DNA from: Candidatus Limosilactobacillus faecipullorum
Lineage (GTDB): Bacteria; Bacillota; Bacilli; Lactobacillales; Lactobacillaceae
Assembly: GCA_019118465.1 (NCBI GenBank)
Contig: DWYX01000039.1
Coordinates: 1-64,000, forward strand
DNA: 64,000 nucleotides
Direction of reading: 5' to 3'
Shown here: positions 48,543-57,627 of the stretch, piece by piece
Layout: every line of letters begins with the position of its first letter
Numbering within the stretch: position 1 is the first letter of the stretch
Translations under genes and position numbers: made by a program
The notes under the pieces: generated by a model
What the model saw: only the letters and a program-made list of their open reading frames with translations
What the model was told of the DNA's origin: nothing
Database searches by the model: none

Positions 48543-50858
48543 TTAACCAAAGAGCCGCGCCCAGAAACCCTTCTTTTTCTTCTTAGGTTGCTCATCAGTG
48601 ACTGGCTTTTTATCCGTTTCGGGTTCTGGCGTTGGCTTCATAGGATGATCATCAATCCCAATCCACTTGTAGAAGGGAGCGGCCTTGATTTCAACAAACT
48701 TCCCAGTCTTACCGTTAATCCCGCCGACACATAGTTCAACTGGCAAAGCATTCCGATATTCATTTTCAGCATCAGCACTAAACCCGTTAAAGCTATTCAA
48801 CTTCGAAATATCAAAAATCAAACTGTTCTTTTCCGGCCGGAAACGGAAGTCTTCTTCCTTTGCTAAGTAGAGTTTTGCCCATTTACTCCGGGTGTTTTCG
48901 CCAAAGTCGTCACATAAACCATCTGCAAAGTAGTCTGGCACTGGCAAATCAGCGAGCTTGTAGTATTCGCGGAAAATTCGCCGGGTCATTGCTAAGAAGT
49001 CTAGTTGGCCAGTCTTTGCGTCAAACATCCGCCATGGCGTTCCGTCGTCCTCTAACAAATTGGCCATCCGTACCACAAAATCCTTAAAGAGGGTATTGTC
49101 TAAACCTTGTCGTACCTCAAAAATATACTTAGCCGCAACTGGTTTCTTTTCGTTATCAATAACCTTATCCAGTTGTAGGTAGTAGGTTCGCCGTGCCGTT
49201 TCCCGTTGCATTGTAAAGCCCGTGTGGTAGTTGGTGGTCCCAATTAATGGGGCAACTGGTTTAGGGCTATTTACCAGTTGGTTCATCGTATCGACGATTA
49301 ACCGCCGACTATATTGCCGCTGTTGGAAGAAGTAAGGCTCGATTTCATCAATCAAAACTGGATAAGTACTCCCCTGTTTCATATAGCTTTCCAGGGCTTG
49401 AACGGTTTTGGCCTTCCGCTGGTTAGCGTCCATTGGGTAAATGGTCCCAAAGTCAATCATTGACTTATCAGTTCCCCAAGTTAACTGGTTAATGACTCGC
49501 AATAAGGTCGACTTCCCGGAACCAGCACTGGCCCCTAAGATAAGGAAGTTCGGGATATCATTCCCGTCTTCAGGGTTGAGGCTGGCTTTTTCCCGAATTT
49601 CCCAAAGAAATGGCGCGGTGAAGGCATAGAGAATCGCCTCGTAGAACCGCTTCCCATATTCCGGGGTGTAATCAACCACAAATTGGGTATAGCCATTCAT
49701 GACTGCTTCAATTTGCTTTAAACTCCGCTTAATTTGAGAAATCGTCGCCAATTGACCAAATGGTAATGGGTATGTTCCGGTGTCATTTGGAGTGTACAAC
49801 CCAGTTTGATTCCGGGTAATATTCCGTTCGAGTGGTCGATCGTAAAGAAAGGTTGTATATTTCTTTTCAACCGCCAAATCTTGGGGCGAAACAGTTGCTA
49901 GCAAATCGTCATGAATTTGTTTAGCGATTTGGTCCCGCTGTTTAATTTTTGGCCGGGCCGCTCGTGGGGAAACAGCTTGCTTTTGTAACTTGTAGACGAG
50001 GTCATGTTGTTTAATTCGTCGCTCTGCTTCTTCACGATCCCTAGTCCGGTTTAAGGTGACATTTCGCATCCCCAAAGGAACATCGGCACGTAACTGTTGC
50101 CGGTCAAGCTGATGTTGGACATCATCGACGAGGAGGTCGGTCATTTCGGTCTCAACCAACTCATCGGTGACTTCATTCGTCAAAATAACAACGCTGTTCC
50201 CTTCTTCATCCGGGTTAGCCTTCTTCCGCGCTTGCAGTTGTTCTTGGGCTTTGGTCAGTAAATGATTTGAGAAGTAAGAAATTAAGGCTGGTCGTAAGTC
50301 GAGCTTAAAATGATTTAAAAGGTTTTCATAAAGCGGATCGTCGTCAAAGACATAGACATCTTCAAACCGATTGTAGTTGGGGTCAAAAGATGGTTCATCT
50401 AAGTCGACTGACCCCAAAACAACCCGCGTTTCTTGGGTCTGCGGGTTTGAAAGTAAATAAAAGCGAGAATGGAGGGCTTGAGTTGGCGCAATTTCAACTT
50501 TTAAAATTCCTGCAATCGCCATCATCTGTAACTGACTGGATAAACGGAGAAAGAGCTTGATTGCTTCTTTATTAGCCACCTTTAACATTGCGCTTGCCAA
50601 GGCATCCTTCGTCACCGTCTCCATTGAAGTGTAATGGTGAGTAGATGAAGGATTTCCCAAGGCAACTTCTAGTTGGACAAAATCACTAAGGTACCGATTC
50701 AAGAAGGTCGCACTTAACTCCCCTGTTACCGCCGTCAATTGGGGGTACTTTTTGGCATCAAAAATTTCCGCAATTGTCATTGCCTCATTTTGATGATTAT
50801 GTACTACATGAATCCGCTTATTCATTGATCCATTGTCAATTTCGGTTGCCATTACCAT
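48543..50858 (-). CDS. PLD-like domain / P-loop ATPase fusion protein (paralogue 2, degenerate PLD site)
   Basis: HSRFYLLSNPQTQETRVVLGSVDLDE, Walker A LILGASAGSGKSTLL, Walker B YPVLIDEIEPYFF, sensor-like LIGTTNYH, C-term KKKKGFWARLFG. Confidence 0.75.
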   Translation of the reverse strand: MVMATEIDNGSMNKRIHVVHNHQNEAMTIAEIFDAKKYPQLTAVTGELSATFLNRYLSDFVQLEVALGNPSSTHHYTSMETVTKDALASAMLKVANKEAIKLFLRLSSQLQMMAIAGILKVEIAPTQALHSRFYLLSNPQTQETRVVLGSVDLDEPSFDPNYNRFEDVYVFDDDPLYENLLNHFKLDLRPALISYFSNHLLTKAQEQLQARKKANPDEEGNSVVILTNEVTDELVETEMTDLLVDDVQHQLDRQQLRADVPLGMRNVTLNRTRDREEAERRIKQHDLVYKLQKQAVSPRAARPKIKQRDQIAKQIHDDLLATVSPQDLAVEKKYTTFLYDRPLERNITRNQTGLYTPNDTGTYPLPFGQLATISQIKRSLKQIEAVMNGYTQFVVDYTPEYGKRFYEAILYAFTAPFLWEIREKASLNPEDGNDIPNFLILGASAGSGKSTLLRVINQLTWGTDKSMIDFGTIYPMDANQRKAKTVQALESYMKQGSTYPVLIDEIEPYFFQQRQYSRRLIVDTMNQLVNSPKPVAPLIGTTNYHTGFTMQRETARRTYYLQLDKVIDNEKKPVAAKYIFEVRQGLDNTLFKDFVVRMANLLEDDGTPWRMFDAKTGQLDFLAMTRRIFREYYKLADLPVPDYFADGLCDDFGENTRSKWAKLYLAKEEDFRFRPEKNSLIFDISKLNSFNGFSADAENEYRNALPVELCVGGINGKTGKFVEIKAAPFYKWIGIDDHPMKPTPEPETDKKPVTDEQPKKKKKGFWARLFG

Positions 50859-51599: not shown

Positions 51600-52489
51600 T
51601 AATAGTTTTTCGTTACCGCTCCAGTTAAGTAGTTAATGCGGATATTTGACTGGACGTTTGGCACAAAGCAATTAAACTCCAAACTTCCGTCTTTAGACTT
51701 CGCCTCAATGTGCGCCCCGGCAGGAACTTTGGCATTGCCATCGTAAATATCGGTTACCCGGTAACGGACTTGTTTCCCTTGATCTAAAGCCTTCCGCACT
51801 AGCCCTTCATAATAGTTTTGACCAGTTGAAGTTGAACTCCGGGCTTCATTAGCCCAAGCAGTCTGCGTTGCGATGTTCTTTGGATTCGATTCAGAAGCAT
51901 CAAAGTAATTCAAGCCTCCAACCAAGGCATAACCCAATAAGTGTCCTCGATCATAGGCATGACTTGGACCGTTGGTTAAATGCATTGCTTGCAAAAAACC
52001 TGCTGGTCGCCACTCGGTTGCTCCGTTTCCAGTCGATTCACGACTTTGATATTGGCGAGTCGTTCGGTTTAACCATGCATCCCCGCGCCACGGTCGACCG
52101 AGCGCATCAAGCTTATTAACCGCATATGGAGCACTACTGATTTTTGCATTCAAATTAGTTTGGTCATTATTAACGATATAAGCCCCGTGACCATTCCATT
52201 CGAGATTGCCACTTAACTGGCTTCGCACATTGGTTGTCAAAACCGATGCTGCTAAGCTTTGACTAGGTGGAGTTAAGGAACTATTGCTAGATCGATAATA
52301 ATGGTGCCAGTAACCTAAGAACTGATTAATAACCCCTTTTAATGAATCATTTTGACTAGTTGTTTGGGTAGTTTGAACGGCACTGCCATTTTGACTACTA
52401 CTTGCTGGCCGTTGAAAGGCACTTGCTACCACGAACAAAATTGCGGCAACTAAGAGCCAATGCCAGAATCTACGAAATTTTCGTTTCAT
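51599..52489 (-). CDS. DNA/RNA non-specific endonuclease (EndA/NucA-like, secreted or anchored)
   Basis: [15 protein letters not shown] catalytic motif, N-terminal TM/signal. Confidence 0.9.
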
Positions 52490-52566
52490 GTTTCGACTCC
52501 CTAAATCCGTTATTATTTATATTCTAACATGATTAGCGAGTCATTTGAACGTTTATTCGTAAGAAA

Positions 52567-53955
52567 TTAATCAGCCGATTGTTTTACTTCATCGCGGTGG
52601 CGGAGGTAGAACAAGGCAATAATGATTACTAAGAAGATTACCCCAACCGAAACAGAAACCCGCGTATCAGGATTAATGAACATGAAAAGGACAATTATCA
52701 CTAATGATGCTAGGGCAAAGTAATTGTAGTAAGGGAAAAACGGAACTTTGAAAGGATGGTCAAGAAGATCTTGCGGGTTCTTCTTCCGGTAATTTAATTC
52801 CGCAAGCAAAATTACAAACCATGGGACTAGCCCTGGCAAGACACTTGAAGAATAAACGATCACGAAGAGGTTTGAAGAAGCTGAGTTAATTGAAGTTAAA
52901 ACAAAGTTCACGACAAACCCAACAAAGATCCAGAAGGAAATCGTTAAGATCGCAACGTTTGGAACCACATGCTTGGAAAGCCGACCGAAGAAGGCCGGGA
53001 CTTCTTTATCAACGGAAAGCTTAAAGAGCATCCGACTAGCAGAGTAAATCCCGGAGTTTGCCCCAGATAAGGCAGCCGTTAAAACAACAAAGTTAATGAT
53101 CCCAGCGGCCCCCGTGATTCCGACCTTCGTAAAGGTTTCAACGAATGGTGAACCAACCTCGTTCAATTGATTCCAAGGGTAAATGGAAACAATGACGAAA
53201 ATTGCTCCAATGTAGAAAATCAAGATCCGCCAGATAACGGACTTAACAGACTTAATAATCGCATGTCGTGGAGAAGCAGATTCACCAGCCGTAATCCCAA
53301 GTAACTCAACCCCTTGGTAGGAACCGGCAATCACAGCCATTGAGAAAACAAAGCCTTTCAAGCCACCGGGGAAGAATCCACCGTGCGTCCAGAGGTTACT
53401 AATTCCAACTGGATGCCAGTTGTTACCAAGACCTAACGTAATTACAAGGAGTCCGATGATGATCATAAAGATAATCGTGACCACCTTAATCATCGCAAAC
53501 CAAAATTCAAGCCGGCCGTATGCTTTAGCAGAAGCTAGGTTTGCTAAGGTTAAAACCACGATCATTACGATCCCAGAGATCCAATCTGGCAGGTTTGGCC
53601 ACCAATAGTTTAGATATTGACTCATAGCGATAATATCAGAAATCCCAACAATAATAAATTGGAAAACATTACTCCACTTAACGACATATCCAGCAGCTGG
53701 GTGAATATATTCCGCCCCGTAATCAGCGAAGGACCCAGTCCCAGGTTTTAAGTAAACCAATTCTCCAAGGGCCCGCATCACTCCATAAAGCACTAAGCCA
53801 ACAAAGGTATAGGCTAGGAGGACTGATGGCCCAGCCCATTTAATCGTAGAAGTTGCCCCCATGAAAAGTCCTGACCCGATCGTTCCCCCGATCGCAATCA
53901 TTTCCATCTGACCCGGCGTCATCGATCGCTTTAACTGTAGCTCATTTTGTTCCAT
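52567..53955 (-). CDS. APC-family amino acid permease
   Basis: MIAIGGTIGSGLFMGATSTIKWAGPSVLLAY; 12 TM-like. Confidence 0.93.
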   Translation of the reverse strand: MEQNELQLKRSMTPGQMEMIAIGGTIGSGLFMGATSTIKWAGPSVLLAYTFVGLVLYGVMRALGELVYLKPGTGSFADYGAEYIHPAAGYVVKWSNVFQFIIVGISDIIAMSQYLNYWWPNLPDWISGIVMIVVLTLANLASAKAYGRLEFWFAMIKVVTIIFMIIIGLLVITLGLGNNWHPVGISNLWTHGGFFPGGLKGFVFSMAVIAGSYQGVELLGITAGESASPRHAIIKSVKSVIWRILIFYIGAIFVIVSIYPWNQLNEVGSPFVETFTKVGITGAAGIINFVVLTAALSGANSGIYSASRMLFKLSVDKEVPAFFGRLSKHVVPNVAILTISFWIFVGFVVNFVLTSINSASSNLFVIVYSSSVLPGLVPWFVILLAELNYRKKNPQDLLDHPFKVPFFPYYNYFALASLVIIVLFMFINPDTRVSVSVGVIFLVIIIALFYLRHRDEVKQSAD

Positions 53956-53985
53956 GTTAATCCCTCATTTCCATTTACCATAGAT

Positions 53986-54036
53986 ACAAAAAACCAGACC
54001 TTTCAAGCCATTCAATGAAATGGTTGAAAGATCTGG
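53986..54036 (-). terminator. Intrinsic terminator in the permease leader (attenuator)
   Basis: Minus strand CCAGATCTTTCAACCATT-TCATTG-AATGGCTTGAAAGGTCTGG-TTTTTTG. Confidence 0.85.
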
Positions 54037-54074
54037 CGTGGTTTAACTATTAACTTAATCCACCGCAAAACCCC

Positions 54075-54146
54075 TCAACCGCAAACTGTTGTTGTGGTTG
54101 AGGTGGAGGTAGTTTGTGAGTTGAGACTTAAACTTAGCAATAACAT
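54075..54146 (-). CDS. Thr/Ser-rich leader peptide (23 aa) upstream of the APC permease
   Basis: AGGAGG SD 8 nt before ATG; MLLLSLSLNSQTTSTSTTTTVCG* with 7 Thr and 5 Ser; Thr codons in an 8-bp perfect hairpin (54073-54080/54096-54103). Confidence 0.8.
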   Translation of the reverse strand: MLLLSLSLNSQTTSTSTTTTVCG

Positions 54147-54454
54147 TGTAACTTCCTCCTCTTACGATTTTTCGCCTTTAATAGTAGCACTATCCATTGA
54201 TAATTGCAAGAAAATGATTAGATTTTCCTAATTTAATTTTCAGAAGCCGTCTTTTTACCCGTCTTATTTGGTTTTAATTGATTAGTTAAAGATTATCCAA
54301 TAAGTAGCAGCGCTACGATTCTCGGCAACATTCTGCTCAAGCTAGCTTCTCCTACGGAATCGTACTCTAGATGAATATTCAGCTTTGAATTTTGCTCTGT
54401 CATCAGCGTCTATTAGTGCTTATCACCACAGAATTTCCGACGAAGCCTTTTACC

Positions 54455-56224
54455 CTACATACTATGCAATACCCGCTCGATATCGTCAACGATCTGTTCT
54501 GGAGTGAGATGGTACCATTCGGCCAGGACTTCAGTTGGGACATTATCAGCAAATTCCCGGGGAGCCCCGAAGTTGAGCGTCTTAATGTTAGTGGCGCCGA
54601 AGTAGCGGGCGATCATTTCACCAAAGCCGCCACTTAAGTTACCGTCTTCAAGGGTGACTACAAGGTCATGTCGTTCTTGTAGGTAGTGAAGATCTTCTCG
54701 ATCAATGTTGGTAAGCGACTTGGGGTTAATCAAACTAGCATCAATATTGAGCTTCCGCTTTAATTGGGCAACGACTTCTTCACCAAGGGCCCAGAAGTCG
54801 CCAACGGCCATAATGGCAACTTCACTCCCTTGGTGAGCGATTTCGTAATCAATATTACCATAGTTGTCCTGGGTTGCCGGCCGATGTAAGAGCGCCTTTT
54901 CCGGTTGCCGAATCACAACTGGAACTTCCGTTTGACTAATTGCCCATCGTAGCATCGAAATCATTTCTTCGACACTAGTTGGAGCTAAATACTCAACGTT
55001 TGGTAAACTGCTAATGTAAGAAATGTCAAAATCACCCTGATGAGTTGCTGACCCACTACTAATGGTTCCATTCCGTACGATCATCACAACCGGGACCGAG
55101 TTTAAGGCCATATCATGAACCAACTGGTCATAAGCTCGTTGCAAAAAAGTACTGCTTTCAAAAACAACTGGCCGAATACCAGCCTGGGCCATTGCGACCG
55201 CTGAGGTAACAGAAGTTTGTTCAGCGATTCCAACATCAAAGTAATGATCTGGAAATTCTTTTTCAAACCGTTGGAGATCAAAGACTCCTGGAATGGCTGC
55301 CGTAATTGCCGCAATTGGCGTTCCTAACTTAACTTGGCGAATTAGTTCATCAATAACCGCTTCAGAATAGGTTTCGGTTGGTTTTGTTCGCTTATCTGCA
55401 CCCGTCTTAAGGTCAAATGGATCTCGCCAGTGGTAACGTTCTGGTTCCGCTTCTGCTGGCGCGTAACCGGCCCCCTTTTTAGTGACTACATGCAAGACAA
55501 TCGGATGGTCAATATCCTTAACTTCCCTAAAAGTTTTAATCATAGTTGCTAAATCATTACCATCAGCAACATACCGATAATCAAGCCCCATAAACTTAAA
55601 AATATTATTCTCACTTTGCCCATTCGTTGCCCGTAATTCGGCTAAGCCTTGATAAAGGCCACCTTGATTAGGGGCAATCGAGTTTTGATTATCATTCACC
55701 ACGATAATGAGGTTGGAATGAAGCTTAGCCGCATTATTAAGACCTTCAAAGGCGAGACCGCCACTCAAGGACCCATCCCCAATTACAGCTACCAAGTTTT
55801 CGTGTTTTTTTAACATATCCCGGGCTTGAGCCATCCCGACTGCTAAGGCCACTGAAGTTGAAGTGTGACCGATTTCGAAGAAGTCATGGTCACTTTCTTC
55901 TGGATTGGTATAACCCGAAACGTCTTCATAGTGGTCAGGATCTAAGAAACCTAATTTCCGGCCCGTTAACATCTTGTGCGGGTATGAGAGATGAGATACA
56001 TCCCAAATCACTTTATCATGGGGTGAACCAAAGACATAATGAAAAGCTAATGTAACTTCCATAATCCCTAAGTTAGGACCAACGTGTCCCCCAATGGCAC
56101 TGTCCCTTTCCAAAACCAATTGGCGCATTTCAGTCGCTAATTTCTTTAGTTGATCAAGACTTAACCCTTTTAAGTCCGCTGGTTCATTAATCTCGTTTAA
56201 TAAATAATCTGGGTGCAGATTCAT
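54455..56224 (-). CDS. dxs: 1-deoxy-D-xylulose-5-phosphate synthase
   Basis: 589 aa; GHVGPNLGIMEVTLAFHYVF, VIGDGSLSGGLAFEGLNNA, YDQLVHDMAL. Confidence 0.95.
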   Translation of the reverse strand: MNLHPDYLLNEINEPADLKGLSLDQLKKLATEMRQLVLERDSAIGGHVGPNLGIMEVTLAFHYVFGSPHDKVIWDVSHLSYPHKMLTGRKLGFLDPDHYEDVSGYTNPEESDHDFFEIGHTSTSVALAVGMAQARDMLKKHENLVAVIGDGSLSGGLAFEGLNNAAKLHSNLIIVVNDNQNSIAPNQGGLYQGLAELRATNGQSENNIFKFMGLDYRYVADGNDLATMIKTFREVKDIDHPIVLHVVTKKGAGYAPAEAEPERYHWRDPFDLKTGADKRTKPTETYSEAVIDELIRQVKLGTPIAAITAAIPGVFDLQRFEKEFPDHYFDVGIAEQTSVTSAVAMAQAGIRPVVFESSTFLQRAYDQLVHDMALNSVPVVMIVRNGTISSGSATHQGDFDISYISSLPNVEYLAPTSVEEMISMLRWAISQTEVPVVIRQPEKALLHRPATQDNYGNIDYEIAHQGSEVAIMAVGDFWALGEEVVAQLKRKLNIDASLINPKSLTNIDREDLHYLQERHDLVVTLEDGNLSGGFGEMIARYFGATNIKTLNFGAPREFADNVPTEVLAEWYHLTPEQIVDDIERVLHSM

Positions 56225-56370
56225 TTTTCCTACTCCTTTAACTTCCGCGCTAAACGGTTTACCCCAAGTGAAATCAACTATATTTTATTTTACAACAACT
56301 CGGAATTAAAGCGAAACCTTTTTCCAATGTGATAAACTGGTTCTAGAATTAAACGAAAGAGGCGTTAAGA

Positions 56371-57627
56371 TTGCCAATTAAGAATGCCGCTACGGAGAAG
56401 CTTGCCCCTGAGCTTCCTCTTACCGCGGAACAATCCCAATTAGTACAACAGATTAATGATTTTGCTCAAAAGCATTTTAGTGATAAGCAAGCCAGTGTTT
56501 TTGTGGTCGAAGGTGAAGCCGGAACTGGTAAAAGTGTTGTCCTAACCCACCTTTTTAATCAGTGGCAAATCGCTGCTCGGACCGAACCGAAAAGTCTGTT
56601 CTATCACAGTAACAATCGTTTTCTCGTAAACCATCCCGAAGTTCTGAAGGTTTATCGGCAATTAGCTGGAGAACAGCCGCATCTTTTAAAAAAAGATTTT
56701 CAACGGCCAACGACGATGATCAACCAGCTGGAGAAGCAAGATGACCATCTCGACCTTGTAGTAATTGATGAAGCCCACCTCCTCCTTTCCAAACCCGACC
56801 ATTACAATAATTTTTATCACGAAAACCAATTACTTGAAATTCTAAAACGGAGTCGGGTCGTAGTTATTGTTGTTGATTTTCGACAAGTACTCCGAATGAA
56901 GAGTCTTTGGACAAGGGAGCGGCTTGAAAAACTCCTTGCCCCTTACACAACTAAATTCGTTAAACTCCGCCACCAATTTCGAATGCAAGCTCCCGATGAA
57001 TTAGTATCCTGGTTGGATGATTTTTCAGATGGGATAATTAATCCCCTTCCCCAAAATGCACGTCAAGGATATGATTTTCGAATTTTCGCTGATGCAGAAG
57101 CAATGCGGCAGCAAATCATTCAACGAAATCAACAAGTGGGTCTTGCCCGGGTTCTTTCAACTTCAGGTTACCCGTCTATTCTTGACGGCGGTAAACATTA
57201 CATTCGAGAAGGTAAATTCAAAATGCCTTGGGATCAATATAATTTCACCCAAACTCCCTGGGCTGAAATTCCCGAAACAATTGATGAGGTTGGCTCAATT
57301 TATACCTGTCAAGGTTTCGATCTCAATTATGCAGGAATTATCATTGGTCCTATTTTCTACTTGGACCCAAAAACAAACCGGCTAGAGGTTGATTTATCTA
57401 AGTACACCGATACCGAAGCTTTTAAACGGCGAAAGGACCTTACCGATCTGGTCGAAATTGAACAGCTTAAGCATTTAATGATCCGTAATGCCCTAAATGT
57501 TATCTTAAAGCGCGGGGTCCTGGGCACATATATCTATGCCCATGATCCAAAACTACGCCAAAAGTTAATCAACCTCTTTCACGAAATTAATCCGGAGGTA
57601 TCCAGAAATGAAGAAAAACGACCATAA
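56371..57627 (+). CDS. DUF2075-type ATPase/helicase-like protein
   Basis: VVEGEAGTGKSVVLTHLF (Walker A), LVVIDEAHLLL, VDFRQVLR, RHQFRM, SIYTCQGFDLNYAGIIIGP. Confidence 0.85.
   Translation: MPIKNAATEKLAPELPLTAEQSQLVQQINDFAQKHFSDKQASVFVVEGEAGTGKSVVLTHLFNQWQIAARTEPKSLFYHSNNRFLVNHPEVLKVYRQLAGEQPHLLKKDFQRPTTMINQLEKQDDHLDLVVIDEAHLLLSKPDHYNNFYHENQLLEILKRSRVVVIVVDFRQVLRMKSLWTRERLEKLLAPYTTKFVKLRHQFRMQAPDELVSWLDDFSDGIINPLPQNARQGYDFRIFADAEAMRQQIIQRNQQVGLARVLSTSGYPSILDGGKHYIREGKFKMPWDQYNFTQTPWAEIPETIDEVGSIYTCQGFDLNYAGIIIGPIFYLDPKTNRLEVDLSKYTDTEAFKRRKDLTDLVEIEQLKHLMIRNALNVILKRGVLGTYIYAHDPKLRQKLINLFHEINPEVSRNEEKRP

Follow-up and report, generated by a model that had tools for sequence, protein, structure and literature searches.

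A short threonine-rich open reading frame (ORF) upstream of an amino acid permease gene, in the genome of a Limosilactobacillus whose closest named relatives are L. alvi and L. ingluviei, is very probably the leader of a ribosome-mediated transcription attenuator, which would sense the supply of threonyl-tRNA and control a ThrP-like (threonine/serine) permease. The initial annotation of the window (the whole stretch of DNA that was analysed, 64,000 nucleotides) had likened this layout to thrL, an analogy that is borne out by the conservation of the frame and of the Thr codons, by a covarying antiterminator and by folding with the ribosome at successive positions, and that is further backed by the best match of the permease (ThrP, below the cut-off) and by Thr T-boxes on orthologous permeases. 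Based on sequence and energy computation, we infer that the leader regulates the permease gene; ribosome stalling and transcription termination in the cell, as well as threonine transport by the permease, are predicted on the same grounds. Upstream of the leader ORF is a dxs-like gene; between the end of the ORF and the permease start there are 119 nt, which include the terminator. The features of the locus are the following:

54209–54204 and 54186–54181, minus strand: putative leader promoter, −35 TTGCAA, 17-nt spacer, −10 TACTAT (read by eye)
54160–54155, minus strand: Shine–Dalgarno (SD) AGGAGG of the leader ORF (read directly; an SD is present in every aligned leader)
54146–54075, minus strand: leader peptide ORF, MLLLSLSLNSQTTSTSTTTTVCG*, 23 codons (sequence reading, conservation, shuffles)
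54087–54113, minus strand: control codons Thr12–Thr20, ACT ACC TCC ACC TCA ACC ACA ACA ACA (conserved run, stall folding)
54096–54103, minus strand: region 1, CCTCAACC, 5' arm of the protector hairpin 1:2, within the control codons (pairing, folding)
54071–54080, minus strand: region 2, GGTTGAGGGG, partner of region 1 or region 3, overlapping the stop codon (pairing, folding)
54038–54063, minus strand: small stem GTGGATTAA/TTAAACCAC between regions 2 and 3, capping the antiterminator (fold of 54014–54088)
54022–54030, minus strand: region 3, CTTTCAACC, 5' arm of the terminator, pairing with region 2 in the antiterminator (pairing, folding)
53988–54037, minus strand: intrinsic terminator 3:4, hairpin 54037–53994 followed by T6 at 53993–53988 (−25.6 kcal/mol)
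52567–53955, minus strand: gene presumed to be regulated, encoding a ThrP-like amino acid permease of the APC family with 462 aa (ThrP model and PF00324 matches)

The leader ORF and its promoter

Re-reading the sequence returned the ORF at 54075–54146 on the minus strand, with the peptide MLLLSLSLNSQTTSTSTTTTVCG, exactly as first described, along with the AGGAGG motif ahead of it and the reported richness in Thr and Ser (7 Thr and 5 Ser, i.e., 12/23). The 7 Thr codons are held within 9, a density reached in 0/3000 dinucleotide shuffles of the leader. Among the 69 SD-led ORFs of 8–45 aa in the 64 kb (a count in which the leader ORF was entered with two start codons), only this leader has more than four of any one residue per nine codons. 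The alternative reading of the CAACAACAG run in the Gln frame was ruled out, the Thr frame being kept in 43/43 aligned leaders. At the position equivalent to the putative promoter, relatives have TTGCAT/A and TATTCT; a consensus scan of the locus listed neither the TTGCAA/TACTAT site nor the terminator hairpin.

Pairing regions and ribosome position

Three hairpins had been described at the outset, and each of them can be found again. In the first one, CCTCAACC (54103–54096) and GGTTGAGG (54080–54073) pair perfectly over 8 bp, while the ACC ACA ACA ACA run placed in this hairpin is divided, ACC belonging to the stem and the ACA codons to the loop. The second stem, GTGGATTAA (54063–54055)/TTAAACCAC (54046–54038), has 4 + 4 bp with one A·A mismatch, and the long hairpin preceding the permease spans 54037–53994, with its T6 at 53993–53988. 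The decisive fourth pairing, i.e., the antiterminator 2:3, was not part of this description. The core of region 2, GGTTGAGGG, is located at the end of the leader ORF, around the stop codon, and complements region 1 (CCTCAACC) and equally region 3 (CTTTCAACC); according to the pairing and folding of regions 1–4, the antiterminator is mutually exclusive with both the protector 1:2 and the terminator 3:4. When the sequence is folded up to the terminator loop (54014–54088), the result is a long capped 2:3 antiterminator (−26.7 kcal/mol, z −5.6; for the window's 2:3 duplex, −20.2 kcal/mol and z −4.0), while the terminator forms once region 4 is included (53988–54064; −33.3 kcal/mol, z −7.1).

The leader was then folded with a ribosome on each codon, whose leading edge was assumed to reach 12 nt beyond the A-site codon. 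With the ribosome on codons 12–19, the probability of 2:3 is 0.99–1.00; it declines to 0.64 on codon 20 and 0.23 on codon 21, and is 0.00 from codon 22 through the stop. Given these values, the codons that would free the antiterminator are just those of the Thr/Ser run, the productive positions moving one codon upstream if the leading edge is set to 15 nt instead. Without any ribosome, 1:2 reaches 0.91 and 2:3 about 0.16. At equilibrium and with region 4 present, the terminator wins wherever the ribosome sits; therefore, the choice must fall during transcription, with the antiterminator forming first, as it likewise must in other attenuators.

Under the proposed mechanism, ample threonine would let the ribosome pass the Thr run and reach the stop codon in or next to region 2, which it would mask, leaving 3:4 to pair and transcription to end at the T6 terminator. 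Under threonine shortage, the ribosome would stall at codons 12–19 and cover region 1, thereby freeing region 2; 2:3 would form before region 4 is made, and the RNA polymerase would continue into the permease gene. If the leader were not translated at all, the 1:2 hairpin would form and the terminator would win again.

Conservation of the leader across Lactobacillaceae

Orthologous permeases were taken from 64 loci, from which 45 leaders were analysed and 43 aligned. Thr-rich, SD-led leaders precede these permeases throughout Limosilactobacillus, and also in Ligilactobacillus, Pediococcus, Weissella, Lentilactobacillus and further genera, the SD, the ATG and the Thr run being kept in the 45 leaders. 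The alignment of leaders upstream of orthologous permeases, which had been put forward as a check, thus finds both the frame and the Thr codons conserved. In the 43 aligned leaders, the ATG-to-core distance takes seven values, yet all of them preserve a single frame, and indels within the Thr run are whole codons. The N-terminal part of the leader is not conserved, in contrast to the Thr run, which reads TTTTSTT, with one Ser, outside Limosilactobacillus. As for the stop codon, it falls between −8 and +13 nt from region 2 in 43/43, in differing frames and extensions.

The antiterminator covaries. Over the 43 leaders, 82% of the cells of the 2:3 helix are paired, vs. 29–47% when the arms are slid, and 41 cells show changes on both sides (0/500 shuffles as high), kinship among the leader sequences inflating such paired-cell counts. 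Compensatory changes include GTGGTTGAG/CTCAACCAC to CTGGTTGAG/CTCAATCAG and, in two genomes, GGTTG/CAACC to GGCTG/CAGCC. The 1:2 helix is paired in about 94% of cells (25–47% when slid) but is weaker as evidence of covariation, because it has varied little. RNAalifold, applied to the whole leader alignment, mainly returned 1:2, since 2:3 competes with it, which is why 2:3 was counted explicitly. With a score limited to the pairing of regions 2 and 3, a ribosome stalled in the Thr run leaves 2:3 formed in 42/43 family leaders and a ribosome at the stop abolishes it in 37/43; in about half of the relatives, 1:2 shields region 2 only weakly when there is no ribosome. Another family score was dropped as unspecific, since the terminator arm contributed to it whatever its pairing partner.

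A few leaders depart from this pattern. In L. caecicola (L036), the leader ORF and its Thr codons are absent while region 2 and the terminator remain, an apparent decay of the attenuator, and two other loci (L044 and L061) show divergent or weak pairing. Outside Lactobacillaceae, no match was returned by a strict leader pattern, nor by R1, a covariance model built on the leader and here run on 199 genomes drawn from the order.

The amino acid probably sensed

The best NCBIfam model of the permease, which also matches PF00324, is ThrP (NF047867), a Thr/Ser transporter, over the full length and with 546.1 bits, where the curated cut-off lies higher, at 850. Orthologous permeases of Liquorilactobacillus, Periweissella and other genera have no leader but a T-box (RF00230), whose specifier was read by eye from Rfam alignments and proved to be ACU (Thr) in every case inspected:

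L069, L071, L072, L077, L079, L083, L084: Thr (ACU) T-boxes before orthologous permeases
L215–L218, L220, L224, L233: Thr (ACU) T-boxes before orthologous permeases

That one permease family uses a leader peptide and a T-box for the same amino acid lends independent support to threonine, and owing to these ACU T-boxes, it is probably Thr rather than Ser that the leader of the ThrP-like permease senses. Permeases with leaders and permeases with T-boxes fall into different clades of the permease tree (8 label changes vs. 50 in shuffles), whose deep branches are weak. A second clade of paralogues, about 65% identical and carrying neither sensor, is nested next to the leader clade; in the genus and the family, no leader and no T-box was found upstream of them (L156–L163, L173, L178–L181, L183 and others). 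Nor was either sensor seen upstream of thrC.

One may still ask whether the leader is a dual switch, its TCC, TCA and AGT codons making serine sensed as much as threonine. The window leader does have five Ser codons, two of them inside the control run, stalls at Ser14 and Ser16 also yield the antiterminator, and ThrP, the nearest characterised permease, carries both amino acids. We nevertheless regard a dual switch as unlikely, considering the single Ser of the TTTTSTT run outside Limosilactobacillus, the ACU T-boxes on the orthologues and a separate Ser-run attenuator on another permease of the same genome (see below). Hence, of the earlier prediction that the permease carries Thr and/or Ser, the Thr part stands as the main signal, in line with the ACU specifiers, while the Ser part is disfavoured by the existence of that separate attenuator.

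A probable serine sister attenuator

A search of 201 genomes of the family with the covariance model R1 recovered the known leaders; in four Limosilactobacillus genomes, that of the window among them, it also returned a second element:

G000:C21:10288–10379 (L257:1501–1592), minus strand: Ser element in the window's own genome (R1 match)
L258–L260, L294–L323: further loci of the permease concerned, read for the Ser leader

This element encodes the leader peptide MIKPFFNILSVSSSSTSTWLVG, and downstream of it come a region 2, a terminator and then the gene of an APC permease. Among the top PDB relatives of that permease are 6f2g/6f2w (293 bits), the entries for BasC, a bacterial Ala/Ser/Cys exchanger. 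An SSSS core or a near-SSSS leader is present in 25/29 of the BasC-like permease loci read in Limosilactobacillus, the Ser run being spelled with both TCN and AGY codons. The Thr and the Ser module are both present in L. reuteri, of which a laboratory strain exists. In the distinct Ser leaders scored, the 2:3 complementarity has z values from −1.1 to −5.9 and is strong in the clade of the window. The window's own genome and G100 (a relative's complete, 2-Mb genome) contain 33 PF13520 matches, among which such leaders are found on ThrP-like and BasC-like permeases only. One Ser leader (L313) lacks a base near its start, so that the Ser run is no longer in frame; the sensor may have been lost recently, or the assembly may be wrong here.

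Outside the promoter, the SD and the core, the Thr and Ser modules have low sequence similarity. An 18-bp motif, TTCTAATRRTATTCTAAT, is nonetheless shared by them: it occurs at both Thr and Ser leaders in most members of the genus but has been lost from the window's own sequences. In G100, exact copies exist at only two places, G100:C1:449252–449269 (L324) and G100:C1:1029209–1029226 (L325), which start 33 bp before the modelled Ser element and 31 bp before the modelled Thr element, respectively. The motif is an 11-bp-spaced near-direct repeat spanning the spacer and the −10 box, and could serve as operator for a regulator common to both modules, or be left over from a duplication of the module. 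Judging from the sequences, the two modules are likely of common descent. The broader scenario is a portable Lactobacillaceae attenuator (promoter, leader and 1:2:3:4) that was duplicated onto an APC permease of the other subfamily with a codon swap between Thr and Ser, the ThrP-like family of sister lineages being under a Thr T-box instead; for this scenario as a whole, we consider the chances evenly balanced. If true, the duplication would represent a natural codon re-programming of an attenuator, combined with the exchange of two RNA sensors for one signal. Moreover, since serS is under a T-box in the window's own genome, leader-peptide and T-box sensors coexist in one genome.

Three other readings of the Thr leader were weighed. 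That the transcript is a constitutive small RNA or the terminator of the upstream gene, with a chance ORF and no regulation, would agree with a promoter-like sequence followed by a strong terminator, but is highly improbable given a frame kept across codon-sized indels, a covarying antiterminator and a conserved stop position relative to region 2. Less probable still is a general translation sensor of the ermC type, responding to antibiotic or stress stalling without sensing any amino acid: although any stall near codons 12–19 would free region 2, the Thr codons are held against drift when the N-terminal part is not, the sister element has TCN and AGY Ser codons before a likely Ser permease, and the regulated genes are amino-acid permeases. 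Just as improbable is a role in permease translation (coupling or reinitiation) or a functional peptide, with termination left uncontrolled, since the good SD of the leader ORF and the help that bacterial leader peptides can give to reinitiation (PMC4833913) are outweighed by the 119 nt and the terminator before the permease start and by a conservation limited to the Thr run.

Relation to known systems

The leader of the E. coli thr operon (thrL), represented in Rfam by the Thr leader family, is a classical attenuator. The window leader resembles it in having a short SD-led ORF with a Thr run, a protector, an antiterminator and a terminator that exclude one another, and, by inference, sensing of Thr-tRNA through ribosome stalling. 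It differs in preceding a permease instead of a biosynthetic operon, in combining Thr with some Ser instead of Ile, and in having an unrelated sequence in a Lactobacillaceae host. At the locus, Rfam gave no match up to E = 1, Thr leader family included, and the T-box model RF00230 had no match at window positions 52000–56500 or on contig C13. A Thr T-box would share the permease family, the amino acid signal and the terminator outcome with the window leader, but it reads uncharged tRNA directly, whereas the leader works via a translated ORF. The likeness to ThrP is that of a sequence score below the cut-off for what is the best NCBIfam match.

To our knowledge, amino-acid-specific leader-peptide attenuation was long held to be absent from Firmicutes, where T-boxes do the job, and ribosome-timed leader switches have rarely been reported there. 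Documented cases include the ilv-leu leader of S. aureus (PMC5794164), the branched-chain leaders predicted in L. lactis and streptococci (cited in PMC5794164), the His leaders of hisS*/hisZ in bacilli, described in 2010 as leader peptides replacing T-boxes when none was known in Firmicutes (PMC2965389), and His attenuators in the B. cereus group, Eubacteriales and Erysipelotrichales (PMC9413887). For the B. cereus group, APC and LIVCS transporters with Thr T-boxes have been described (PMC2494555). Like the reported Firmicutes leaders, the window leader would follow classical ribosome-mediated attenuation; unlike these His and branched-chain leaders, the Thr and Ser pair would control transporters, spans several genera of one family and comes as sister modules.

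No Thr or Ser leader peptide in lactobacilli was found in the literature searched, whose coverage mostly excludes subscription journals, and it is for this reason that we call the leader a new sequence family. By sequence, its mechanism and parts would be those of the classical thr/trp/his attenuators, while the Thr/Ser pair, the exchange between T-box and leader, and the Lactobacillaceae setting appear to be unreported. One bacterial family keeps a leader for probable threonine uptake and its serine twin, with a permease family split between leader peptide and T-box, which offers a tractable system, probiotic lactobacilli included, for asking why RNA sensors replace one another and how the specificity of an attenuator shifts. 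In addition, leader codons could be used for naming the substrates of permeases.

Neighbouring genes

Downstream of the permease and on the same strand, the adjoining gene (52489–51599, minus strand) encodes a DNA/RNA non-specific endonuclease (PF01223) with an N-terminal membrane-like segment. Further along the window, positions 48543–50858 (minus strand) encode a 771-aa protein with a P-loop (GASAGSGKST), which matched nothing in Pfam, NCBIfam or PADLOC at E 0.001. Finally, a 418-aa helicase/ATPase-like protein encoded at 56371–57627 (plus strand) has weak PADLOC matches to Nhi (E 6e-11) and AbiO (E 6e-9).
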